The notes below the pieces were generated by a model. The model did not search any database, was not told where the DNA came from, and was given only the letters and a program-made list of their open reading frames with translations. Shown in pieces: positions 49,181 to 62,254 of a DNA stretch of 64,000 bases (its first letter is position 1; each line of letters opens with the position of its first letter). Source of the stretch: Synechococcus sp. LTW-R. Lineage in GTDB: Bacteria > Cyanobacteriota > Cyanobacteriia > PCC-6307 > Cyanobiaceae. A program made the position numbers and the translations under genes. The stretch lies in the NCBI RefSeq assembly GCF_014217875.1, contig NZ_CP059060.1:620001-684000 (forward strand). Direction: 5' to 3'.

Positions 49181-50650
49181 GTGCCCAGCTCGTTTGTCCT
49201 CGTCTACCACCGGTCTCCCTTTGATGAGGTCATCAACGCGGACGGAAGCCGGCAGTGGCAGGACCAGAAGAGCCCGAACGGCATCATTCCCACCCTGCGC
49301 AACCTCTTCCGCTCCCATCCCTCCGGCACTTGGATTGCCTGGCGGCAGAACGAGGATCCCGCAGCCGAAGACGAAACCCTGACCATCGAGGAGCCCATCG
49401 CGATTCGCTTGCGGCGGATCCCGCTCCGTCAAGAGCAGATCGGCAGCTTCTATCACGTCACCTCAAAGGAGTCGATCTGGCCGATTCTCCACAGCTTCCC
49501 GAGCTTTTTCGAGGTCAATAACGCCGACTGGCAGACCTTCAAAGACGTCAACCAGCGCTTCGCCGAGGCGGCCTGCAATGAAGCTGCCCCTGGAGCTTCA
49601 ATCTGGATTCATGACTACAACCTCTGGCTAGCGCCCGGATTCATTCGAGCCCTTCGGCCCGACGTCAAGATCAGCTTCTTTCACCACACGCCCTTCCCCA
49701 GCAGTGATGTCTTCAGCATCCTGCCCTGGCGGGAAGAGATCATCGAAAGCCTGCTCTGCTGCGATGCCGTCGGCTTTCACATTCCCCGCTATGCGGAGAA
49801 CTTTGCCCGGGCCGCATCCAGCTTGCTCCCCGTCAAAAAGGGACCCAAAGCGGAGATTGCCGAACACTTCCTCCCCTGCGGCAGTGCCCTCGCCCAACCG
49901 GATGCCACGCCCTGGCTGGAGCACAACGGCCATCGCGTGAAGTTGGTGGCGACACCGGTTGGCACCAGCCCAGATGTGATTCGAGGCCTCAGGGATACCC
50001 CATCGGTCCAAGAGCTCATCCAGGAGATCGAAACCAACACGAAGCGCGGCCGCACCTTTATCCTCTCGGCAAGCCGTGTGGACTACACCAAGGGCAACGA
50101 AGAACTACTGCGCACCTTTGAGCGCCTGCTCGAGCGCAATGAATCCATCCACGGCCAGGTGGTCTTGGTGTTGGCCTGTGTCGCCGCCAACACCGGCATG
50201 AAGGTCTACGAGGACACCCAGCGCGGGATCGAGGAAACCGTGGGCCGCATCAACGGTCGCTTTAGCAAGATTGATTGGGTGCCCATTCGCCTGACCACCC
50301 AACGCATTCCCTACGAGGAAATGGTCGCCTGGTTTGCCGCCTCCGACATCTGCTGGATCACCCCCCTGCGGGATGGTCTGAACCTCGTCGCTAAGGAATA
50401 TGCGGCGGCCCGGAAGGGCCGTGGCGGGACCCTGGTGCTCTCCGAATTCACCGGCGCGTCGGTCGTGATGAAGGGAGCCGTCCTGACCAACCCCTACTCC
50501 CACAGGCGAATGGACGAGGCCATTGACATGGCCCTGACTCTCTCCCAAGCGGAGCAGGAGCAGCGGATGGCTTCGATGGCAGCCTCCGTGGATCAACTCA
50601 GCGTGGACCACTGGGCCAAGGAACAACTGGGGGCGATTGAGTCGCCGTGA
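49181..50650 (+). CDS. ggpS: Glucosylglycerol-phosphate synthase
   Basis: GgpS condenses ADP-glucose with glycerol-3-phosphate, the first step in making the osmolyte glucosylglycerol. It is a GT20 glycosyltransferase related to trehalose-phosphate synthase: WIHDYNLWLAP, SFFHHTPFPSSDVFSILPWR, SRVDYTKGNEELL and LRDGLNLVAKEYAAA. The 489-aa length and linkage with ggt transport genes and stpA favour GgpS over OtsA. The start is GTG. Its stop overlaps the ggtB GTG start (GTGA), tying synthesis to re-uptake in one transcript. Confidence 0.9.
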   Translation: MPSSFVLVYHRSPFDEVINADGSRQWQDQKSPNGIIPTLRNLFRSHPSGTWIAWRQNEDPAAEDETLTIEEPIAIRLRRIPLRQEQIGSFYHVTSKESIWPILHSFPSFFEVNNADWQTFKDVNQRFAEAACNEAAPGASIWIHDYNLWLAPGFIRALRPDVKISFFHHTPFPSSDVFSILPWREEIIESLLCCDAVGFHIPRYAENFARAASSLLPVKKGPKAEIAEHFLPCGSALAQPDATPWLEHNGHRVKLVATPVGTSPDVIRGLRDTPSVQELIQEIETNTKRGRTFILSASRVDYTKGNEELLRTFERLLERNESIHGQVVLVLACVAANTGMKVYEDTQRGIEETVGRINGRFSKIDWVPIRLTTQRIPYEEMVAWFAASDICWITPLRDGLNLVAKEYAAARKGRGGTLVLSEFTGASVVMKGAVLTNPYSHRRMDEAIDMALTLSQAEQEQRMASMAASVDQLSVDHWAKEQLGAIESP

Positions 50651-51906
50651 TCAGCCGCCGCGCTGGTCTCCTGACGCTGGGCTGCCTTCTGGGCAGCCTG
50701 CTGTTGAGCGTGGCGCTCTGGGCCAAGCCCGCGCCAGAGCCTGTGTCCATATTGATGCCCGCTCCCTTCGCCGATGCCACCGCTGAGCTGGTGGAGACGT
50801 TCAACCGTGAGCACCCCGGCATTGCCCTGAGCGTGACGCGAGGACCCTTGGAAACGGAGGCGGTGTCGGACTTGGCGATTAGCAGCCTGCTGCTTGGCAA
50901 CAGTCCCTACGACGTTCTCTTGATGGACGTCACCTGGACTCCGAAATACGCCAAGGCGGGTTGGCTGGAGCCGCTAGAAGCCTGGCTCGGAGCCGATGCC
51001 CTGGAGGACCTCGCCCCCGGTGCGGAACTCGGTAATGCCTTTGATGGCCACCTCTGGCGCTTCCCTCTGGTGGCCGACATGGGCCTGCTGTTCTGGCGGA
51101 CGGACCTGATGGAGGCTCCCCCCAGAACACCCTCTGAGCTGGAAGCCATCAGCCAGTCCCTGCAGCAAGAGGGGCGGGTCCGCTGGGGCTACGTCTGGGA
51201 GGGCCGTCAATACGAGGGACTCAGCTGCACCTATCTCGAGGTCCTACGGGGCTTCGGGGGACGTTGGCTGCGGGATGGTTCGCCGGATCTCAACAGCAAC
51301 GCGGCGATCGCGGCCAGTCAATGGCTCCGTCACCTCGTCGATGTGGGCATCACGCCTCCAGCGGTGGCCAACATGGCCGAACCGGAAGCCCTGCAAACCT
51401 TCGAAACGGGTGATGCGGCGTTCATGCGCAACTGGCCCTATGCCTGGGCCGAACTGAACAAGAACGGCTCGCTCTTGGCGGGAAAAGTCGGCATCACCAC
51501 GATGGTCAGTGAACCCCAGGAGCCGCATGTCGCCACCCAAGGCAGTTGGGGACTGTCCGTGCTCTCCAGTTCCCAACACAAGCAGGCTGCCGTTGAGGCT
51601 CTGCAGTTCCTGACCAGTAACGCGGCGCAGAAGCAACTGAACCTGAACTGGGGCTACACGCCAACGCGCCTCAGCGTCTTCGAGGACCCGGAACTGATCC
51701 GTGCCAATCCGGTCCTTCCGGAGTTGCAAGCCGCGCTGGCGGCGGCTGTGCTCAGGCCGGTGACACCGATCTACGCCCAACTCAGTGACCTGCTTTACCG
51801 GGAGGTGAACACGGTGATCACCGGTGAGGTCGCCGCCGCTCCAGCCATGGAGACGTTGCAGCGCAACAGCATCCAGCTGGAGCGCTCCACGGGAGGGATC
51901 TCCTAG
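50647..51906 (+). CDS. ggtB: Glucosylglycerol ABC transporter substrate-binding protein
   Basis: A signal/anchor sequence (GLLTLGCLLGSLLLSVALWA) precedes a family 1 sugar-binding protein: PAPFADATAELVETFNREHPGI, YDVLLMDVTWTPKYAKAGWLEPL, and QGSWGLSVLSSSQHKQAAVEALQFL. It captures solute in the periplasm for the permeases encoded immediately downstream. Specificity for glucosylglycerol (and often sucrose or trehalose) is inferred from linkage with ggpS. It starts with GTG overlapping the ggpS stop. Confidence 0.87.
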   Translation: MISRRAGLLTLGCLLGSLLLSVALWAKPAPEPVSILMPAPFADATAELVETFNREHPGIALSVTRGPLETEAVSDLAISSLLLGNSPYDVLLMDVTWTPKYAKAGWLEPLEAWLGADALEDLAPGAELGNAFDGHLWRFPLVADMGLLFWRTDLMEAPPRTPSELEAISQSLQQEGRVRWGYVWEGRQYEGLSCTYLEVLRGFGGRWLRDGSPDLNSNAAIAASQWLRHLVDVGITPPAVANMAEPEALQTFETGDAAFMRNWPYAWAELNKNGSLLAGKVGITTMVSEPQEPHVATQGSWGLSVLSSSQHKQAAVEALQFLTSNAAQKQLNLNWGYTPTRLSVFEDPELIRANPVLPELQAALAAAVLRPVTPIYAQLSDLLYREVNTVITGEVAAAPAMETLQRNSIQLERSTGGIS

Positions 51907-52797
51907 ATGCTCCGTTGGCGCCAACAGCTCTGGCTTCTGCTCCCAGCCCTGGGATTGCTCACCCTGGTCTTCCTGGTGCCGATCGCGCATTACCTCTGGT
52001 TGAGCACCCAGACCCAGACCGTCCTGACGGAACTCCGGCCTGTTCCCGCGGGCGCTGCCCAATGGATTCGGCTCTGGAATGACAGCCGGTTCTGGCAGGA
52101 CGCTTGGCAAACCCTGCGCTTTGCAGGCCTGTCCGTCACCACGGAGATGGTGCTGGGTCTGGCGATCGCGCTGCTGTTGAACGAGCCCCTGCGCGGACGA
52201 AGCAGTTTGCGCATGATCAGCCTGCTGCCCTGGGCCCTACCGACGACGGTCATGGCCTTGGGCTGGCGCTGGATCTTCAACGATCCCTATGGCCCGATTA
52301 ACCTAGCCCTGGGCTGGATCGGAGTCACACCGATTCCCTTTTTGGCTAACCCATTGATCACCTGGGTCGCCACGGTTTGGGCCGACACCTGGAAGACGAC
52401 CCCGTTTGTTGCCCTGCTCCTGCTGGCGGGTTTGCAGAACATTCCCCGAGACCTCTACGAGGCCGCCCAGTTGGAGGGTGCCTCACCCTGGCAGTCGCTG
52501 CGGCACATCACGATTCCGCTGCTCACGCCCTATCTCTTGATCGCCCTGGTCTTTCGCCTGGCCCAAGCGCTAGGGGTCTTCGACCTTGTCCAGGTGCTCA
52601 CTGGCGGTGGTCCAGCGGGCAGCACCGAAAGCTTGGCCCTCTACGCCTACCTCAACGCGATGCGCTTCCTGGACTTTGGCTACAGCGCCACCGTCATGCT
52701 CGGTGCCTTTGCGGGATTACTGGTCTTGTGTGGAGCTTTAGCAACCCTCTGGTGGTGGAGCAGTGGCCGTCAAGACCTCGCCGGAGGTGAGCGGTAA
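51907..52797 (+). CDS. ggtC: Glucosylglycerol ABC transporter permease GgtC
   Basis: This 296-aa MalF-type permease has about six hydrophobic segments (first: LWLLLPALGLLTLVFLVPIAHYL) and the conserved EAA loop EAAQLEGASPWQSLRHITIPLL that docks onto the ATPase. It starts directly after the ggtB stop and overlaps the ggtD start by one base. With GgtD it forms the membrane channel for solute re-uptake. Confidence 0.88.
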   Translation: MLRWRQQLWLLLPALGLLTLVFLVPIAHYLWLSTQTQTVLTELRPVPAGAAQWIRLWNDSRFWQDAWQTLRFAGLSVTTEMVLGLAIALLLNEPLRGRSSLRMISLLPWALPTTVMALGWRWIFNDPYGPINLALGWIGVTPIPFLANPLITWVATVWADTWKTTPFVALLLLAGLQNIPRDLYEAAQLEGASPWQSLRHITIPLLTPYLLIALVFRLAQALGVFDLVQVLTGGGPAGSTESLALYAYLNAMRFLDFGYSATVMLGAFAGLLVLCGALATLWWWSSGRQDLAGGER

Positions 52798-53588
52798 TGG
52801 CTCGCCTTCTCCTCTTGATCTGGAGCCTCGGACCGATGCTCTGGCAGCTCTACACCTCCTTTCGACCCAGCGCCGTTCTCACCGGCGGCGCGCGCGGCGG
52901 CTGGACCCTGGAGCACTACCAGCAACTCCTCAACGGTGAACCGCCGTTTCTGACGTATCTCCTCAACAGCGGAATCGTCGGTCTGAGCAGCACGGTCGTC
53001 ACCCTGCTGCTCGCGATTCCCTGTGCCTATGCCCTCAGCCGGATGCAGGCCCATCGCGCCCGAAGCATCAGCGTGGCGGTGGCTGCAGCAGCGGCCTTCC
53101 CAGCCGTCCTGCTCTTCCTGGCGTTGCTCGAGGTCGCCCGCGACTTCCATCTCGCCAACAACCTGCTTGCCCTGAGCCTTCCCTACGCCGGCCTCTGCTT
53201 GCCCCTGGCCATCCTCTTGCTGCAGGCCGCCTTCCGCGACATCCCCATCGAATTGGAGGAGGCCGCCCTGATGGAGGGCATGTCCCTCTGGCAACGCCTC
53301 CGCTGGGTGTTGCTTCCCTTGATGGCCCCGGCCATCTCCAGCGCGGCCCTGCTGATCTTCATCTTCTGCTGGAACGAATATCCGATTGCCCTCACCTGGT
53401 TGAGCCAGGCCGACCTTCTCACCCTGGCGCCCGCCATCGCGCGCATTGCCGGCTCCTCGATCTTCACTGTTCCGTATGGAGCCTTTGCCGCCGCCACCGT
53501 CCTGGGCAGCGCACCCCTGCTGCTGATCATGTTGCTCTTCCAGCGTCAGATCATCAGCGGCCTCACCCAAGGGGCCATTAAGGGATAA
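52797..53588 (+). CDS. ggtD: Glucosylglycerol ABC transporter permease GgtD
   Basis: This 263-aa MalG-type permease has hydrophobic segments and the EAA loop EEAALMEGMSLWQRLRWVLLPLM. The first membrane segment is short (RLLLLIWSLGPMLWQLYTSF), so the N-terminus is at or slightly beyond the lower limit for this family. Its ATG overlaps the ggtC stop (TAATG). A 39-bp gap separates it from ggtA. Confidence 0.88.
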   Translation: MARLLLLIWSLGPMLWQLYTSFRPSAVLTGGARGGWTLEHYQQLLNGEPPFLTYLLNSGIVGLSSTVVTLLLAIPCAYALSRMQAHRARSISVAVAAAAAFPAVLLFLALLEVARDFHLANNLLALSLPYAGLCLPLAILLLQAAFRDIPIELEEAALMEGMSLWQRLRWVLLPLMAPAISSAALLIFIFCWNEYPIALTWLSQADLLTLAPAIARIAGSSIFTVPYGAFAAATVLGSAPLLLIMLLFQRQIISGLTQGAIKG

Positions 53589-53627
53589 CCCCAAGGACCA
53601 CTTCAACCGATTCGCTTTTCCCGCTTG

Positions 53628-54671
53628 ATGACCTCCTCCAGCCCTGCTCGCACCGGTCTGGTTCTTAGCCAGCTCTGCCGCAGGGTTGGGCAGCAAACCT
53701 TACTCAAGGACCTCAGCCTGGAGGTCGCGCCGGGAGAAATCCTGGCGCTGCTGGGCCCGAGTGGCTGCGGGAAAAGCACCACACTCCGCTGTGTCGCCGG
53801 TCTCGATAGGGCTAGCAGTGGCTCCATCGAACTGGCCGGAGAGGAGATCACTGCGCGACCGCCGGCCGAACGGAACGTGGCCATGGTCTTCCAGAGTTAC
53901 GCCCTCTATCCCCACCTGAGCGTCCGCAAGAACCTCAGCCTTGGTCTGGAACTGCGGCGCGTGCCCCAGGCCGAGGTCGAGGACGACGTCGAGCGGGTCC
54001 TCGCACTGCTCCAACTGGAAGCCTGCCGCGAGCGCAAACCCGCCGAACTCTCGGGGGGCCAGCGCCAGCGGGTGGCCCTCGCTCGGGCACTGCTGCGCAA
54101 GCCCGCCCTGTTTTTGCTGGATGAGCCGATGAGCAACCTGGATGCCCAGCTCCGGGAGGACCTGCGCGGGGAGTTGCGGGGAATCCTGCGGAGTACCGGA
54201 GCACCCGTGGTCTACGTGACCCATGACCAACATGAAGCCATGGGCCTCGCCGATCGCATTGCCGTGCTGAAGACCGGAGAGCTGCAACAGCTGGGCTCAG
54301 CCGCTGAGCTCTACCAAGATCCGCAGAACCAGTTTGTCGCCAGTTTCCTGGGGAGTCCCTCGATCAACCTGCTTCCCCTTCACCCCGGTGAATTGGTGGG
54401 ATTACGGCCGGAACATCTGGAAGTGGTGGAGGCCAGCAGCCCACTGACGCCCGAGCTGGCAGCCCTGGATGCGCAGCGGGAGCACCTCGAATGGCTCGGG
54501 GACCGCGTCATCAGCCATTGGCGGGTGCGTGGCAGCAGCGTGAAGGTGCTCTCCGATGCCCAAAGCCAGAGCGCTGCTCTCGCGCAAAGCCATAACGGCA
54601 CGCTGCAGTTGCGCTGGAAGCGTGAGCATGAGCTGCACTTCGAGCAGGCCAGCGGACGGCGGATTCGCTGA
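53628..54671 (+). CDS. ggtA: Glucosylglycerol ABC transporter ATP-binding protein
   Basis: This MalK-type ATPase has Walker [11 protein letters not shown]-loop AMVFQSYALYPHLSV, signature LSGGQRQR and Walker B LFLLDEPMSNLD, followed by a C-terminal regulatory TOBE-like domain (VGLRPEHLEVV). The start is the ATG at 53628; a TTG one codon earlier is in frame. In Synechocystis ggtA lies apart from ggtBCD, as far as I recall; here all four are together with ggpS. The end converges on the next gene with seven bases between stops. Confidence 0.9.
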   Translation: MTSSSPARTGLVLSQLCRRVGQQTLLKDLSLEVAPGEILALLGPSGCGKSTTLRCVAGLDRASSGSIELAGEEITARPPAERNVAMVFQSYALYPHLSVRKNLSLGLELRRVPQAEVEDDVERVLALLQLEACRERKPAELSGGQRQRVALARALLRKPALFLLDEPMSNLDAQLREDLRGELRGILRSTGAPVVYVTHDQHEAMGLADRIAVLKTGELQQLGSAAELYQDPQNQFVASFLGSPSINLLPLHPGELVGLRPEHLEVVEASSPLTPELAALDAQREHLEWLGDRVISHWRVRGSSVKVLSDAQSQSAALAQSHNGTLQLRWKREHELHFEQASGRRIR

Positions 54672-54678
54672 GGGAGCT

Positions 54679-56232
54679 TTAGTCCCAGACCGTTTCGATG
54701 ACGTTCATCGCTTGCAAATACGCCGGAACTTCATCGCTCGTCGCCGACTCGTCGTCAACAAAACTGTCACCGCTAACGGACCGGCGCGCCAAGTCCGCCA
54801 CAACGGCACTCACCACGAGATCAACCGCGGCAGGGTTATCCAGGTTCTGCAGGGCCTCGGCATAACGGCGGCTATGGGTTGGCCTGACGGACTCTTGGCA
54901 GTAGTTGCTCAACTCGCGACTCTCCGTCATCACCGAGAAGGCGGATTGCTTGGAGTTCTGACGGCCAAAGATGGCCATGTAGAGCAAATTGATCAAGGAG
55001 GCGTCATGGAGAGGGATGCCGTACTGACGCACGATCTGGGGCCAGTAACGCAACGACCGCAGTCCCTCTAGTCCCCCCTTCGATAGGCCTGCGTCATCAC
55101 ACCAGGTCTCAAATTCCTCAACGTTGGCCGGACAACGACCGCACTCGCGCATCCGATTCGCCAGCACTGCTCCCGCCTGGAAGTTGCGGGTCGGACTGCC
55201 CGCAGTGGGCAGCATCATGCTGCCGCGCACATCGGCGACCATCGCTGTCAACTGCGAGAAGGTGTGGTCTCGCACTTTCTCCATGTCGCCATCGCGAACG
55301 AGTGCGGCCTCAATGCGCTGGACGCCGTAGCCCAATTCGGTCAGGGCAATCGGCTGACGGTGATAAAGCCGTTGGCGATCCGTTCGCGCCATCGACACCG
55401 TGGCCGCCTGGTCCAAACACTGCTCGAGCAGCAACGTCAACAGAGTTGGCAGAACACCCGGGTTTTCCCGGTGGAAGGTGTAGCCAAACCCAGCAAAGAT
55501 CGAGGCCATGTTTTTAGCGGCCTTGATGTATTGCCCTTCGATGTTGTGAACACCGGCTGAAACCTGGAGGTTGGGGGAGAGGCGATCCAGCAGCCGTGCC
55601 CCCAGCAAGGCCGTCAGAGCATTGGGATGGCAGAAATTCGCCGTGAAGCTGTCAAGGGGGTTGCGGAGGGCGCCATGGCGGTGAAATCCCGTGAAGAAGC
55701 CCAGGTTCGGTGCCTTTTGACAGAGGACATAGGCCTCATTGGAAATCGGATCGTGGGTGAAGGACCCCGCCAAACAAGCGAGCACAACGTGCTCGCGGCC
55801 GAGGTCCTCCCGAAGCCGTAGGGCCTCCTGCAGGTCCTCTTCAATGTGGTTGCTGTTCGCACTCAGCACCACCAGCTCACAGTGCTGAATCAGATACCCA
55901 AGGTCATTGGGCACCGGCTTGCCCGCCTCGGAGTGGGCACCCATGCGCTCCATCGTGGCGCGGTGCTCGGGGTCCATCCCCGAGAGCTCCTCGCTTTTAA
56001 AGGCCCCCAGAATTTTTCGGCCGGGGCGAGCCGCTAAGAGCAACCGAGAGCCATCGGTTTGCATCGCGCAGTTGTAGGCCAGCGACGCCGGATACAGACC
56101 AACGCTGTAGAAGCCGACCTTGCCCTCTTCCAGCGCGATCAGGCGCCTTCGGATCCGCTCAGCGTCAAGGTTGGATTCGAAAAAACCGTTCTGCAAGATA
56201 AAAACTGGGCCTACACCATCCTTACGGACCAT
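54679..56232 (-). CDS. Unrecognised protein in the GG locus; distant glycerol-3-phosphate-dehydrogenase-like fold suggested
   Basis: I do not recognise a named family for this 517-aa protein. It has a Rossmann-like start (KVGFYSVGLYPASLAYNCAM, residues ~38-57), a segment CELVVLSANSNHIEEDL in the place of the GpsA AD-xIxxAVPS strand, and VHNIEGQYIKAAKNMASIFAGF, which lines up with the GpsA block V-x-G-V-E...ALKN-x-x-AIAAG that carries the catalytic Lys. This suggests a 6PGDH/GpsA-type dehydrogenase fold, but the Gly-rich loop is degenerate. About 200 C-terminal residues are mostly helical. It is divergent from stpA (33 bp) and converges with ggtA. Confidence 0.6.
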   Translation of the reverse strand: MVRKDGVGPVFILQNGFFESNLDAERIRRRLIALEEGKVGFYSVGLYPASLAYNCAMQTDGSRLLLAARPGRKILGAFKSEELSGMDPEHRATMERMGAHSEAGKPVPNDLGYLIQHCELVVLSANSNHIEEDLQEALRLREDLGREHVVLACLAGSFTHDPISNEAYVLCQKAPNLGFFTGFHRHGALRNPLDSFTANFCHPNALTALLGARLLDRLSPNLQVSAGVHNIEGQYIKAAKNMASIFAGFGYTFHRENPGVLPTLLTLLLEQCLDQAATVSMARTDRQRLYHRQPIALTELGYGVQRIEAALVRDGDMEKVRDHTFSQLTAMVADVRGSMMLPTAGSPTRNFQAGAVLANRMRECGRCPANVEEFETWCDDAGLSKGGLEGLRSLRYWPQIVRQYGIPLHDASLINLLYMAIFGRQNSKQSAFSVMTESRELSNYCQESVRPTHSRRYAEALQNLDNPAAVDLVVSAVVADLARRSVSGDSFVDDESATSDEVPAYLQAMNVIETVWD

Positions 56233-56265: not shown

Positions 56266-57471
56266 ATGGCGCGTCTCTCCCTCGAGAAGCTGCAGGAGGA
56301 GATCAGCGCCAGCTCCAACGTCCTCTTGATCCAGGACCTCGATGGGGTCTGCATGCCCCTGGTGCGTGACCCCCTGACACGGGCGCTGCCAGCTGACTAC
56401 ATCGAAGCGGTCCGACGGCTTGGCCACCGCTTCCGTGTCCTTACCAATGGGGAGCACAGCGGCAGCCGCGGGGTGAACCGGCTGGTGGAGAGAGCCCTGG
56501 GGCCGGAGCGTGATCCTGCCGGGGAAGGGCTCTATCTCCCGGGACTCGCGGCGGGCGGCGTTCAATCCCAAAGCCAGCACGGTGCCATCAGCCACCCCGG
56601 TGTCAGTGAATCTGAGTTGGCGTTTCTTGCGGCCGTCCCCGGCCAACTCAAGGCAGGGGTGCAGGCCATGGCGGAACGACTCCGTCCCAGCTCTAGCGCC
56701 GCTGTGCTCGAGCCCCTCAGCCAGGCGGCGGTGCTGGACAACCAACTCTCACCAACCCTGAATCTGAACGTGCTCTTCGCCGGTCTCCAGCTGGAGCCAG
56801 CGGAACAACGCCGACTGCAGGAGGCGAGTCAAGAACTGCTCGAAGGCCTGGAGGAGCAAGCCAAAGAGCAGGGGCTGGGGGATTCCTTTTTCCTGCACTT
56901 GGCCCCCAACCTCGGCAGCCAGGACGGCAAAGAACAGCTCAAGTGGGCCAGCCCCGAGCACTGCGGCACCAGCGACTTTCAATTCATGCTCCGCGGAGCC
57001 GTCAAAGAGGCAGGGCTCTTGGTGCTGCTCAATCAGCACATCGCCAGACAGACCGGCCACGCGCCCCTTGGGGATGACTTCAATGTGCGCACGGCTCCTC
57101 GCAACGCCGAGGGGCTACTGGCCCTGGCCCAAGAGGCGATTGCGCCCGATCAGGTGCCGACCCTGATTGGGATTGCCGACACCATAACCTCCGAGCCTCG
57201 CGTGGAAGGCACCCAGGTGCGTTGGAGCCGTGGCGGCAGTGACCGGGGCTTTTTGACCCTCCTCCAAGAGATCGGCCGGGCCTTTGGGACGCCAAATCGG
57301 GTGGTCTTGGTGGACAGCAGCGACGGCGAATTGGATCGACCGAGCCTCCTGGACCCCGAGCTCAAGGGCCTGAGCGACCCGGAGGATCCCCTGCAGCTCG
57401 ATGTCCTGGTTCCCGGGGGGCCAGCGACCTACGTCGAGTGGTTCAACGGCATGGCACGCAACGTCTTTTAA
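56266..57471 (+). CDS. stpA: Glucosylglycerol-3-phosphate phosphatase
   Basis: StpA (GgpP) removes phosphate from glucosylglycerol-phosphate, releasing the osmolyte. The N-terminus has the phosphatase motif LIQDLDGVCMPLV with the two Asp expected of HAD-like catalysis, followed by RFRVLTNGEHSGSRGVNRLVE and a C-terminal GDDFNVRTAPRNAEGLL block. From the ATG at 56266 it is 401 aa, in keeping with the family; a GTG four codons upstream is possible. The divergent partner is the GpsA-like gene. Linkage to ggpS supports the assignment. Confidence 0.87.
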   Translation: MARLSLEKLQEEISASSNVLLIQDLDGVCMPLVRDPLTRALPADYIEAVRRLGHRFRVLTNGEHSGSRGVNRLVERALGPERDPAGEGLYLPGLAAGGVQSQSQHGAISHPGVSESELAFLAAVPGQLKAGVQAMAERLRPSSSAAVLEPLSQAAVLDNQLSPTLNLNVLFAGLQLEPAEQRRLQEASQELLEGLEEQAKEQGLGDSFFLHLAPNLGSQDGKEQLKWASPEHCGTSDFQFMLRGAVKEAGLLVLLNQHIARQTGHAPLGDDFNVRTAPRNAEGLLALAQEAIAPDQVPTLIGIADTITSEPRVEGTQVRWSRGGSDRGFLTLLQEIGRAFGTPNRVVLVDSSDGELDRPSLLDPELKGLSDPEDPLQLDVLVPGGPATYVEWFNGMARNVF

Positions 57472-57532: not shown

Positions 57533-59281
57533 ATGCCAGAGGGGGCCAGCAGGACTCAACCCTGGCCCCCAGCCCCGGGACAGCATCCCTGGTGGGATGG
57601 AGCGGTCATCTATGAGCTCATCCCGCGCTGCTACAGCGATTCCGATGGCGATGGAATTGGTGATTTCGGTGGTCTCACCAAACGGCTCAGCTACCTGCGT
57701 TGGCTCGGGGTCGATGCCATCTGGATGACCCCGATCTATCCGTCTCCCCTTCGGGATGGCGGATATGACATCACGGACTTCACCGACATCCATCCGGAAC
57801 TCGGGGACCTCGACGCCTTCCATCGGTTCGTCGAAGCGGCCCACGCCCATGGCATCCGGGTGGTGATCGACCTGGTGTTGAACCACACCAGCCAGCTCCA
57901 TCCGTGGTTTCAACGGGCTCGTTTCGCCGAACGGGGGAGCCCGGAGCGGGATTACTACGTCTGGAGAGACGACCCGGACGGCTACAGCGAAGCACCCGTC
58001 CTCTTCCGCCACTTTGAGGACTCCAACTGGTCCTGGGATCCGATTGCACAGCAGTACTACCTGCACCGCTTCCTGCATCACCAACCCGACCTCAACTACG
58101 ACAATCCCGCCGTCCAAGAGGCGGTGCTCCAGGTCGTCGACTTCTGGTTGGCCCGAGGCATCGACGGCTTTCGACTCGATGCCATTCCGTTTCTGTTCGA
58201 ACGGGAAGGTACCCGCTGTGAGGGTCTACCGGAAACCCACGCCTTCCTGAAAACCCTGCGCCAACGGGTTGACGCCTTCAGTGCAGACCATCCTGGTCGC
58301 GACATCCTGCTGTTGGCGGAAGCGATTCAGCCGGTGGAGGAGGCCATGCCTTACCTCGAAGACGGGGAACTGCATGCGGCCTTTAATTTCGCCCTCACGG
58401 CCCATCTCTTCGCCTCCGTCGCCCACGGGGAGACCAAGAGCCTCAATCGCTTCCTCAAGGAGATCAGCAACCTGGACTGCGGCCGCGGTTGGGCGCTGCC
58501 GCTGCGAAACCACGATGAACTCTGGCTCGGCGATGGTCATCTCGTCCCCGAGGAGGTCATTCATTGGGTCCGCCATGGCCTGCCGGCTGCCCATGGCCAT
58601 TGGCTCAATTGGGGCATCAACCGCCGTCTGGCACCGCTGCTGAACGGCGACCCGCGGCCCAACATGGCCCTGCATGCCCTGCTTTACAGCTTGCCGGGCA
58701 TGCCTTGCCTCTATTACGGCGATGAGCTGGGCATGGGTGACTGGCCTGGTCTGCGGGACCGTGACCCCAATCGCACACCGATGGCCTGGACCCCCGACCG
58801 CAACGGCGGCTTCTCAGCGGCCCCCGATCCGTTGCTGGTGCTCCCGCCGATCACGGCACCGGGATACGACTACCGGGTGATCAACGTCGAGGTCCAGAAA
58901 TCGCTGAAGGGTTCGCTGTTGAATTGGCATCGCCACATGTTGGTGAGCCGCAAGCTGCTGCCGGCCCTCCGGCACGGGGACTTTGAACTGCTGCCGAGCC
59001 ATCACCCGAGCGTGGTCAGCTTCATTCGCCGCTGCGAGGCCATGACCGTTCTGGTCGCGGTCAACCTCAGCGGCACCGGTGCTTCAACCGAAATCGACCT
59101 GAGCCGCTGGGAAGGGGAACGCATTCGCGAGTTGCTTTGGGGTTGTGAATTCCCCGAAGCGACGCGCGACTGGTTCGTGTACCTGCAGGCCTATGGCTTT
59201 GGCTGGTGGTTAATCGGCGATATGGAACTCGCCAACAACAGCGATTCCGCCTCGGGCGTGAGCCGTTCGGCTTCAGCCTGA
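57533..59281 (+). CDS. GH13 trehalose-synthase-like enzyme (TreS type, GH13_16)
   Basis: This 582-aa GH13 enzyme follows TreS almost throughout: WWDGAVIYELIPRCYSDSDG, GIGDFGGLTKRL, PIYPSPLRDGGYDI, DLVLNHTS, the catalytic Asp in GFRLDAIPF, the acid Glu in LLAEAIQ, the transition-state HD in LRNHDEL, and YYGDELGMGD with NRTPMAWTPDRNGGF. It ends WFVYLQAYGFGWWL, like the TreS C-domain. TreS isomerises maltose and trehalose; here, between stpA and glpD, it may act on glucosylglycerol or trehalose as osmolyte, which is inference. Its last 91 bases overlap the glpD end on the other strand. Confidence 0.82.
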   Translation: MPEGASRTQPWPPAPGQHPWWDGAVIYELIPRCYSDSDGDGIGDFGGLTKRLSYLRWLGVDAIWMTPIYPSPLRDGGYDITDFTDIHPELGDLDAFHRFVEAAHAHGIRVVIDLVLNHTSQLHPWFQRARFAERGSPERDYYVWRDDPDGYSEAPVLFRHFEDSNWSWDPIAQQYYLHRFLHHQPDLNYDNPAVQEAVLQVVDFWLARGIDGFRLDAIPFLFEREGTRCEGLPETHAFLKTLRQRVDAFSADHPGRDILLLAEAIQPVEEAMPYLEDGELHAAFNFALTAHLFASVAHGETKSLNRFLKEISNLDCGRGWALPLRNHDELWLGDGHLVPEEVIHWVRHGLPAAHGHWLNWGINRRLAPLLNGDPRPNMALHALLYSLPGMPCLYYGDELGMGDWPGLRDRDPNRTPMAWTPDRNGGFSAAPDPLLVLPPITAPGYDYRVINVEVQKSLKGSLLNWHRHMLVSRKLLPALRHGDFELLPSHHPSVVSFIRRCEAMTVLVAVNLSGTGASTEIDLSRWEGERIRELLWGCEFPEATRDWFVYLQAYGFGWWLIGDMELANNSDSASGVSRSASA

Positions 59282-60747
59282 TCCAGAAACGCGATCCGAC
59301 TGCGCCGCTCCAGAAGATCCGTGCTGGTCTTGGCCCACTCGAAGCGGATGTTGTAGCGCCACTCCGCCAAGCAGACCGGCACCACCGCGCTCAGCGGAAT
59401 GGCCTCGGATGAATCCATGGCCTGCTCAAGCACCTGCTCAGCTTGCAAGCCGTAGTTGGCGATCAGGTGGTCGATCTGTCGGCGTTGCAGAGGACCCGTC
59501 GGTGTCAACGGCTCGAGCCGCGCCCGCAGCGCTGCCAGTGACGCCAGGGACTGCGCCGGACTCGAGTCGGCCCCAAGCAAGGGCAACGGCACGGGAGCTG
59601 GCAGTGTCTGGTTGAGCTCGCCTGCGATCGCCTTCAGGGCATCCAGGGCCAAGACCCGGCAGGTAGTCCACTTGCCACCCAGCAGGCTGATCAGGCCGCA
59701 GTCCAAGCGCTCGACCTCGTGTTCGCGCACGACCTTGCTGCTGCCGCGATCGGAGTCCGGCTGGATCAGTGGCCTGCCGCCCGCCCACCGACTCGAGACC
59801 GTCAACGTGGGCTGCCCCGGGAACCAGCGCCGTAGATGGTCCATCAGGAAGGTCTCCTCAGCAGCGGAGACCGTGGTGGCCTCCCCGACCGCACAGGGGG
59901 AGTCGGTGGTGCCCACGAGGGTCCTGCCCTGGAAGGGCAAGACGAACATCACGCGGCCATCACTGGTCTTGGGAATTAAGAGTCCGGTGCCGGCTGGACA
60001 TAACTGCTGTTCAAGAACAAGATGCACACCGCGGCTCACCAGGAGCCGTTCCCGGCAGTTGGGCTGGGCCAGGGCCCGAAGGTGGTCCGCCTGAATGCCC
60101 GTGGCGTTCACGATGCAACGGGCCGGCCAGCAGGTTGTGGATCCATCGCCGCCGCGCGTGACCGCGGCCACCACCTGGCCCCCCTCATGCTCAAAATCAA
60201 CGACAGGACAGTCCCGCTGGACGACGGTGCCGGCGGACTCGGCCGTGAGCAACAGCAGCAGGTTCAGCCGGGCATCGTCGAATTGACCGTCGCTGTAGAG
60301 CACCGCCCCATGGCGCTCACGGTCCAAACCCGGTAGGGCCGCTTGCAACTGCTGGCGGTTCATGCCGCAACTGGGCTCCAGGCCAGCGGAACCCGCCAGG
60401 AGGTCGTACATGCCCAAGCCCATTCGGTAATAGGCCTGCTCGATGGGCCCCTGGGTAGGCAGGGCAATGCGAAGGGGCTGGGCCAGGAACGGAGCCTGAT
60501 CAATCCAGTACTGCCGTTCAGAGAGGGCCTCCCGAACCAACTTCAGCTGGGCCGCGTCGAGTTGTTTGAAAGCGAGCTCGAGGTAGCGAACACCGCCATG
60601 CAACAACTTCGTGCTGCGCGAACTGGTGCCCTGGCCGGGATCACCCGCCTCGAGCAGCGCCACCCGCAATCCACGACGCACCGCTTCGTAGGCAAGAGCG
60701 GCACCACTGCTGCCGCCGCCAACGATCAGCAGATCAAAGCGGTCCAT
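59191..60747 (-). CDS. glpD: FAD-dependent glycerol-3-phosphate dehydrogenase
   Basis: GlpD oxidises glycerol-3-phosphate to dihydroxyacetone phosphate, passing electrons to the membrane quinone pool. The FAD motif DLLIVGGGSSGAALAYEA begins the protein, followed by STKLLHGGVRYLE and FVLPFQGRTLVGTTDSPC. From the ATG at 60745-60747 it is 518 aa; the ATG at 60753 is equally possible, and the frame to 60867 runs into glpK. Its 5' end overlaps the 3' end of glpK by about 14 bases, so the two are coupled. It can dispose of glycerol-3-phosphate arising from glucosylglycerol breakdown. Confidence 0.93.
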   Translation of the reverse strand: MDRFDLLIVGGGSSGAALAYEAVRRGLRVALLEAGDPGQGTSSRSTKLLHGGVRYLELAFKQLDAAQLKLVREALSERQYWIDQAPFLAQPLRIALPTQGPIEQAYYRMGLGMYDLLAGSAGLEPSCGMNRQQLQAALPGLDRERHGAVLYSDGQFDDARLNLLLLLTAESAGTVVQRDCPVVDFEHEGGQVVAAVTRGGDGSTTCWPARCIVNATGIQADHLRALAQPNCRERLLVSRGVHLVLEQQLCPAGTGLLIPKTSDGRVMFVLPFQGRTLVGTTDSPCAVGEATTVSAAEETFLMDHLRRWFPGQPTLTVSSRWAGGRPLIQPDSDRGSSKVVREHEVERLDCGLISLLGGKWTTCRVLALDALKAIAGELNQTLPAPVPLPLLGADSSPAQSLASLAALRARLEPLTPTGPLQRRQIDHLIANYGLQAEQVLEQAMDSSEAIPLSAVVPVCLAEWRYNIRFEWAKTSTDLLERRSRIAFLDQAEAERLTPEAESLLLASSISPINHQPKP

Positions 60748-62254
60748 CACCATGCCAGTGCAAACAACGGTCAACGGCCTGATCCCAGCGGCGGCACCAA
60801 CGCTCCCGTTCAGACGCGTCGCGCTGGGGACTGACCTGGGTTGAGGAGGCACGGATGGCCGTGGCAATCGGCCCCAGATCGCTCAGCACCCCGGCGCCCT
60901 CACCGGCCATCAAGGCCACTCCGAGGGCCGTTGATTCAAGATTTGCTGGCCTGACAACCTGCACGCCGGCACTGTCGGCTTGCGCCTGGAGCAGGACCGC
61001 CGACGCGGCCGCTCCGCCATCAACGGCAATGGTGTTCAAGGGAGCACCGAGCGCTTCAGCGGCACCGCGCAACAGGCCGGTCACCGCCAGGGCGATGCCC
61101 TCCAGGGCTGCCCGGGCGATCTGCGGGGCGGCGGTGTCACGGGTCATGCCAATCAGCAGGCCCCGGGCGTTGGGATCCCAGTGGGGGGATCCCCAGCCGG
61201 TGAAGGCCGGCACGAGCATCAATTCACCCGCGCTCTCCACCCTGGAGGCCAGGGCATCCACCTCGGAGGACTCGCGGATGATCCCCAGGCCATCACGCAG
61301 CCACTGGATCACCGTCCCAGCATTGAAGAGGCTGCCCTCAATGCAATAGGTGGTGCTGCCGTCGGTGTTGCTCCAACCGACCGTGCTCAACAGCCCCCCT
61401 GCAGCTCGTTGCGGGCGAAGGCCACCGTTCACTACCAGGAAAGCGCCCGTGCCGTAGGTGCACTTCGCCTGGCCCGGTTCAAAGCAGAACTGGCCATAAC
61501 TGGCCGCCTGCTGGTCACCCAGCATCGCCGTGATGGGGGTGCCAGCGAAGGGAAGCCCCTCGGCGATCACGGCAAAAGCACTGCGGGTCGGCAGCAGTTC
61601 CGGGAGGGCAGCAGCCGTCAATCCGACGCGCTCAATCACGTCCGGCAACCAGCACAACTTCTCCAGGTCCAGTAACAACGTTCGGCTGGCATTGCTGATG
61701 TCGGTGGCATGGCGTGTTCTGCCGCTGAGGTGCCACAGCAACCAGCTGTCGATGGTGCCAAAGCAGAGGTCATCGGCGGCCAGGGCCTGCCGGGCCTCGG
61801 GATGGGCCTCGAGCATCCAAGCGATCTTGCTGGCGCTGAAATAGGGATCCAGCACCAATCCGGTTTGGCGCTGCCAGGACTCCGCATCGGGCTCGCTCCT
61901 CCAACCCGCGCAAATCGACGCCGTCCGCCGGTCCTGCCACACCAGGGATGGGCCGAAGGCTTCGCCGGTGCTGCGGCGCCAGAGGGTGGTCGTTTCCCTT
62001 TGGTTGGTGATCCCGCAGGCACGCACCGCTTGGCGCTGCTCTGGGCTTAAGCGCTGCTCCAGCAACGCCATGGCCTCCAGTTGGCTTTGCCAGATCGCGG
62101 CGGCGTCCTGTTCGACCCAGCCATCACTGGGGTACTGAATCGCGAGGGAGACCTGGGCGGAGGTAACCGGCACACCGCGGACGTCGAAGAGAACCGCGCG
62201 GGAGCTGCTGGTGCCCTGATCGAGGGCTAAGAGATAGGACTCGGACACAGGCAA
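60734..62254 (-). CDS. glpK: Glycerol kinase
   Basis: GlpK phosphorylates glycerol to glycerol-3-phosphate. The FGGY-kinase motifs are LALDQGTSSSRAVLFD at the N-terminus, ITNQRETT, DNRS-type QDRRT, and the ATP-binding GWSNTDGSTTYCIEGSLFNAG. At 506 aa it is complete. The start is a TTG (62254) or a GTG two codons later; neither has a good ribosome site. It forms an operon with glpD and recycles glycerol from osmolyte turnover; whether free glycerol is imported is not shown, as no GlpF-type facilitator is seen. Confidence 0.94.
   Translation of the reverse strand: MPVSESYLLALDQGTSSSRAVLFDVRGVPVTSAQVSLAIQYPSDGWVEQDAAAIWQSQLEAMALLEQRLSPEQRQAVRACGITNQRETTTLWRRSTGEAFGPSLVWQDRRTASICAGWRSEPDAESWQRQTGLVLDPYFSASKIAWMLEAHPEARQALAADDLCFGTIDSWLLWHLSGRTRHATDISNASRTLLLDLEKLCWLPDVIERVGLTAAALPELLPTRSAFAVIAEGLPFAGTPITAMLGDQQAASYGQFCFEPGQAKCTYGTGAFLVVNGGLRPQRAAGGLLSTVGWSNTDGSTTYCIEGSLFNAGTVIQWLRDGLGIIRESSEVDALASRVESAGELMLVPAFTGWGSPHWDPNARGLLIGMTRDTAAPQIARAALEGIALAVTGLLRGAAEALGAPLNTIAVDGGAAASAVLLQAQADSAGVQVVRPANLESTALGVALMAGEGAGVLSDLGPIATAIRASSTQVSPQRDASERERWCRRWDQAVDRCLHWHGDGPL

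Follow-up and report, generated by a model that had tools for sequence, protein, structure and literature searches.

Every glycerolipid requires glycerol-3-phosphate, and Prochlorococcus-type organisms make glycerolipids too; Prochlorococcus and marine Synechococcus are among the most abundant photosynthetic organisms. The metabolite is handled by the soluble NAD(P)H-dependent glycerol-3-phosphate dehydrogenase (GPDH) GpsA, with the domains PF01210 and PF07479, and by the FAD-dependent GlpD/GlpA, an unrelated flavoprotein working in the catabolic direction. In Dunaliella salina a bifunctional GPDH (6iuy), a phosphatase-GPDH fusion, makes glycerol. The conserved active-site residues of human GPDH are K120, K204, N205, D260, T264, R269, N270 and Q295, and the K120 lysine matters for catalysis by about 300-fold in kcat (PMC12874384). 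As for picocyanobacteria, a survey of 2012 left EC 1.1.1.94 unannotated for Prochlorococcus and WH7803 (PMC3369817), and a study of 2022 located gpsA in freshwater and subcluster 5.2 brackish strains, and an FAD-dependent version in marine ones, naming no replacement of GpsA (PMC9361551). Our literature search found no paper assigning a GpsA replacement in Prochlorococcus.

We analysed a stretch of 64,000 nucleotides from Synechococcus sp. LTW-R (the window), in which an osmolyte locus encodes a protein, hereafter the GPDH-like protein, that is probably a highly divergent member of the GPDH fold and an NADPH-dependent dihydroxyacetone-phosphate reductase, which would have fed glucosylglycerol synthesis and then, in Prochlorococcus and marine Synechococcus, replaced GpsA.

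The gene and its neighbourhood

The open reading frame at 54679..56232 of the minus strand, picked out in a sequence-only reading, is a real and conserved gene, present in 127 of 251 genomes of the same taxonomic family (Cyanobiaceae) with identities of 48–100%; copies in other marine cyanobacteria are 61–71% identical. Since the homologues begin with M[KRQ]NSFF, translation most likely starts at TTG 56196, and the upstream ATG at 56232, at whose position close relatives carry a stop or lack an ATG, is probably unused. The GPDH-fold gene, defined by homologue alignment, model and structure matches, would therefore occupy 54679..56196 (minus strand) and encode 505 aa from the conserved TTG start. 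With this shift the divergent arrangement with stpA is maintained, but the gap between the two genes, previously given as 33 bp, becomes 69 bp, from TTG 56196 to the stpA ATG at 56266.

With an E-value limit of 10 the protein matched no Pfam or PHROGs family and no PDB sequence, and with a limit of 1 it matched nothing in NCBIfam; no match of the window protein to PF07479 or PF01210 was above the gathering score, and a 58-member profile of its family matched none of the PDB sequences. A phage-gene origin was also considered; no relative is encoded on any viral contig.

The divergent neighbour is stpA (ggpP; 56266..57471, plus strand), coding for glucosylglycerol-phosphate phosphatase (TIGR02399, 497 bits; PF09506). 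On the same strand lie ggpS (49181..50650; TIGR02398, 739 bits), whose product, glucosylglycerol-phosphate synthase, consumes glycerol-3-phosphate, and the osmolyte ABC transporter genes ggtB, ggtC, ggtD and ggtA (50647..54671), the subunits being named by position and similarity. The genes for the catabolic FAD-dependent dehydrogenase, glpD (59191..60867), and for glycerol kinase, glpK (60734..62254), are on the minus strand. Between stpA and glpD, at 57533-59281, the window encodes a trehalose-synthase-like enzyme of the alpha-amylase family (TIGR02456, 604 bits, with a cut-off of 678), found in the same interval in RCC307 (L061); this enzyme may take part in glucosylglycerol turnover.

Most Prochlorococcus, like the subcluster to which the window belongs, carry the GPDH-like gene next to a divergently oriented stpA, and in a distant cyanobacterium (G371) the GPDH-like gene comes directly after glpD in a cluster with the order stpA...glpK-GHL5 hydrolase-ggpS-glpD. 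The GHL5 hydrolase of the distant cluster (PF14872; L150:8114-10771), between glpK and ggpS, is probably a glucosylglycerol hydrolase.

Fold and active-site positions

An AlphaFold2 model of the GPDH-like protein, built from 58 aligned natural sequences, showed a mean pLDDT of 86.5 and a pTM of 0.85. When this model was compared with the PDB, the best 20 chains by Foldseek were all GPDHs (E from 1e-9 to 2e-7), as were the top 16 entries by VIA-align (Z 22.3–27.9, 299–334 residues aligned), the best structure being the GpsA of Coxiella burnetii (3k96), with Z 27.9 over 310 residues, 3.0 Å and 12% identity. The next fold was that of ketopantoate reductase, at Z 14.3, and among opine dehydrogenase and ketopantoate reductase structures 1bg6 reached 12.4. 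As modelled, the protein has the GpsA/GPD1 fold, with a Rossmann domain and the GPDH helical domain; in the fold check set beforehand, the Rossmann/6PGDH architecture was present, with GPDH structures best by both programs. An opine dehydrogenase of the CntM-like type, which was the first idea raised by the SxGxxP loop, was dropped, the GPDH structures being far ahead. The protein does contain the approximately 200 extra residues noticed earlier, but they are not all C-terminal: since model residues 22–435, the span matched to 3k96, cover the 326 residues of GpsA, much of the extra length is inserted into the helical domain, with a C-terminal tail of about 70 residues.

Residues were paired through a sequence alignment that included GpsA from the same genomes and from related ones, and their invariance was scored over 58 sequences of the GPDH-like family. 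The AKN block reported in the sequence-only reading was recovered as KAAKN (residues 225–229; 55510..55524, minus strand), in which K225, K228 and N229 are invariant and K228-N229 are aligned with the LKN of GpsA and with K204-N205 of human GPD1. TRNFQAG (residues 336–342; 55171..55191, minus strand) is the equivalent of SRNxxxG (R269-N270), T336-R337-N338 being invariant (n=58) and aligned with S-R-N of GpsA, and E377-G378 (55063..55068, minus strand), invariant in the 58 members, falls on an E-G that is likewise invariant in GpsA. DVRGS (residues 322–326; 55219..55233, minus strand) is proposed as the D260...T264 equivalent: D322 and S326 are invariant with the D-x-x-x-T spacing of D260/T264, in a loop whose alignment is ambiguous by 4 residues.

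The nucleotide loop is degenerate, as described before: residues 27–40 (VGFYSVGLYPASLA; 56077..56118, minus strand) show S31-x-G33-x-x-P36 in place of the GxGxxG of GpsA, with S31 and G33 invariant, and are paired in the alignment with IGVLGLGAWGQTLA of GpsA. At the end of beta-2 (residues 52–60; 56017..56043, minus strand), the usual place for binding the 2'-phosphate of NADP(H), R57 and R60 are invariant, which suggests NADPH as the cofactor. The catalytic lysine of SKG (K120 of the human enzyme) maps to VLACLAGSF (residues 138–146; 55759..55785, minus strand), where there is no lysine, the aligned position being A143 in the window protein and V in high-light Prochlorococcus; as a guess, the role of this lysine might be taken by one of the invariant residues K225, H172 and R173. 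After beta-6, an invariant GFHR motif is found where GpsA has GPN.

Sequence identity to GPDH is 12–15%, and 16 of the 58 family members matched PF07479, the GPDH C-terminal domain, below the cut-off (best E 0.003, residues 316–416). The profile-profile comparison of the family with GpsA fell short of significance, owing to the small depth of the two alignments (effective number 2.2–2.7); TRNFQAG was nonetheless placed on SRNYRFG.

Co-occurrence with osmolyte genes and complementarity with GpsA

The gene had been expected to accompany ggpS. In the Cyanobiaceae this association exists, with ggpS in 74 of the 127 carrier genomes (phi 0.47), but it is too narrow a description, the closest partner being stpA, found in 125 of the 127 (phi 0.92). 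The GPDH-like gene is present in 39 good-quality genomes with no ggpS above the cut-off, and a partnership with ggpS only was ruled out by the phylogenetic profile. Outside the family, carriers were marine Xenococcaceae, Pleurocapsales, Acaryochloris, Leptolyngbyaceae and Lyngbya; those sampled had ggpS in 8/8 (p ~3e-6) and stpA in 7/8 (p ~2e-5), with p values uncorrected for relatedness. A study of 67 freshwater picocyanobacteria reported ggpSP only in CH-040 and ATX 6A2 (PMC9361551), and both strains carry the GPDH-like gene (L093, L095).

In ggpS-less Prochlorococcus-type genomes stpA is retained, upstream of the GPDH-like gene (L038-L046, L055-L057), and the StpA of a high-light strain matches PF09506 with 498 bits. 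One genome, G128 (L048), has the GPDH-like gene and ggpS and lacks stpA, and in another, G020, an in-frame TAG is reported in ggpS. Four contigs labelled as Gammaproteobacteria (L064, L068, L086, L087) contain picocyanobacterial-like copies 72–75% identical to the window protein; wrong binning of metagenome contigs is the likeliest explanation.

Many Cyanobiaceae genomes lack GpsA (PF07479), and in every genome having it GpsA scores 139–165 bits, so that its presence or absence leaves no grey zone. Among the 167 Cyanobiaceae genomes at least 90% complete (good genomes), 78 have only the GPDH-like gene, 66 only GpsA, 21 both and 2 neither. In the last two (G036 and G118), the contigs with stpA measure 3324 and 3231 bp and end 109 and 3 bp beyond it, exactly where the GPDH-like gene would be. 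The window's own genome has both genes, GpsA being encoded just outside the window (G000:C1:618427). The loss of GpsA may have been a single event in one clade, so that many of these genomes are not independent and few independent events lie behind the complementarity; in the tree of the GPDH-like family the deep forks are poorly resolved and the Prochlorococcus branches are long.

GpsA (PF07479), GlpD and GlpK were absent from 16/16 Prochlorococcus-type genomes, where the search for GlpD returned only FAD-motif fragments (at most about 21 bits), and the GPDH-like gene was present in 16/16. The GPDH-like protein is the only candidate enzyme forming glycerol-3-phosphate that was found in Prochlorococcus. 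Glycerolipids are made by organisms with these GpsA-, GlpD- and GlpK-less genomes; therefore, some source of glycerol-3-phosphate must exist.

Proposed function and comparison with described enzymes

We infer that the GPDH-like enzyme would convert dihydroxyacetone phosphate into sn-glycerol-3-phosphate with NADPH and that, in cyanobacteria making glucosylglycerol, it would feed GgpS. At first it could have served glucosylglycerol synthesis alongside GpsA; the ordinary gpsA would then have been lost in the lineage of subcluster 5.1 Synechococcus and Prochlorococcus, leaving the GPDH-like enzyme as the only NAD(P)H-dependent one to supply glycerol-3-phosphate for all glycerolipids. The relation to GpsA and the role of glycerol-3-phosphate supplier, both advanced in the sequence-only reading, are well supported by the fold, the catalytic motifs, the genomic context and the distribution complementary to GpsA, the activity being a predicted one. 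The idea of a supplier dedicated to GgpS is too narrow: in Prochlorococcus the protein looks like the general source of glycerol-3-phosphate. The replacement of the K120-equivalent lysine by A or V, the altered GxGxxG, the identity of 12–15%, the non-significant profile comparison and the possibility that GpsA was lost only once count against this assignment. In its boldest form, which we consider rather doubtful, the lipid glycerol backbone of Prochlorococcus and marine Synechococcus would come from an undescribed class of GPDH, formerly of osmolyte metabolism, which displaced GpsA and which in ggpS-less Prochlorococcus still acts together with StpA in a novel pathway of two steps, perhaps one that forms glycerol.

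The same differences at the K120 position and in the dinucleotide loop, together with the invariant GFHR in place of GPN and the closer link to stpA than to ggpS (phi 0.92 vs 0.47), could be expected if the protein were a functional reductase from the GPDH superfamily whose substrate is another phosphorylated compound of osmolyte metabolism, later dephosphorylated by StpA. We regard this as unlikely: R337-N338, which in GPDH bind the substrate phosphate, and K228-N229 are kept, GPDH structures score far above all other folds, and it is GpsA that the gene replaces across genomes. Devoid of the K120 equivalent and of GxGxxG, and encoded next to stpA, the protein could also be a catalytically inactive descendant of GPDH, sensing glycerol-3-phosphate or NADPH and regulating StpA or GgpS. 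The sensor and regulator roles suggested in the sequence-only reading found no positive support, and the missing lysine is the reason why they are still considered; an inactive sensor is very unlikely in our judgement, as the other catalytic residues do not vary across very diverged members, and the gene is retained where ggpS is gone and kept in every good GpsA-less genome, which a regulatory role does not explain. Thus, the invariance of the phosphate-binding and K-N positions and the retention of the gene in the good genomes lacking GpsA make both explanations less likely than a dihydroxyacetone-phosphate reductase.

Glycerol formation together with StpA, from dihydroxyacetone phosphate through glycerol-3-phosphate to glycerol, at least in ggpS-less Prochlorococcus, would be an extension of the reductase assignment and compatible with it. 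It would explain why Prochlorococcus-type genomes keep stpA without ggpS, and the bifunctional Dunaliella enzyme (6iuy) is among the best structural matches. To our knowledge, however, glycerol is not a reported solute of Prochlorococcus, the GlpK needed for its reuse is absent, and the substrate described for StpA is glucosylglycerol-phosphate (PMC6753628); we consider this extension quite unlikely.

If the reductase assignment is correct, an unannotated, near-universal gene of Prochlorococcus and marine Synechococcus would be an essential enzyme, filling the gap of 2012 at EC 1.1.1.94 in Prochlorococcus and WH7803 (PMC3369817). Metabolic models would gain a real reaction where that gap stood, and the takeover of a core lipid step by osmolyte metabolism would become testable.

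Among the systems compared, the opine dehydrogenase, ketopantoate reductase and 6PGDH-like folds share with the GPDH-like protein the Rossmann domain and the helical C-terminal domain, but the structural match is much weaker (Z 14.3 or less). GlpD/GlpA acts on the same metabolite, and a glpD is encoded nearby in the window, but this catabolic flavoprotein is unrelated and absent from the tested Prochlorococcus genomes. The Dunaliella enzyme has the GPDH fold (Z 26.0, 14% identity) and an osmotic context; its phosphatase domain is fused, whereas here the phosphatase, StpA, is a separate partner encoded by the divergent adjacent gene. Compared with GpsA, the GPDH-like protein is about 200 residues longer, 12% identical and below the Pfam cut-off, has the SxGxxP loop, is devoid of the K120-type lysine and was found here only in (mostly marine) cyanobacteria, but it resembles GpsA in the fold over 310 residues (Z 27.9), in the K-N, S/T-R-N and E-G motifs and in a distribution which, within the Cyanobiaceae, is complementary to that of GpsA.
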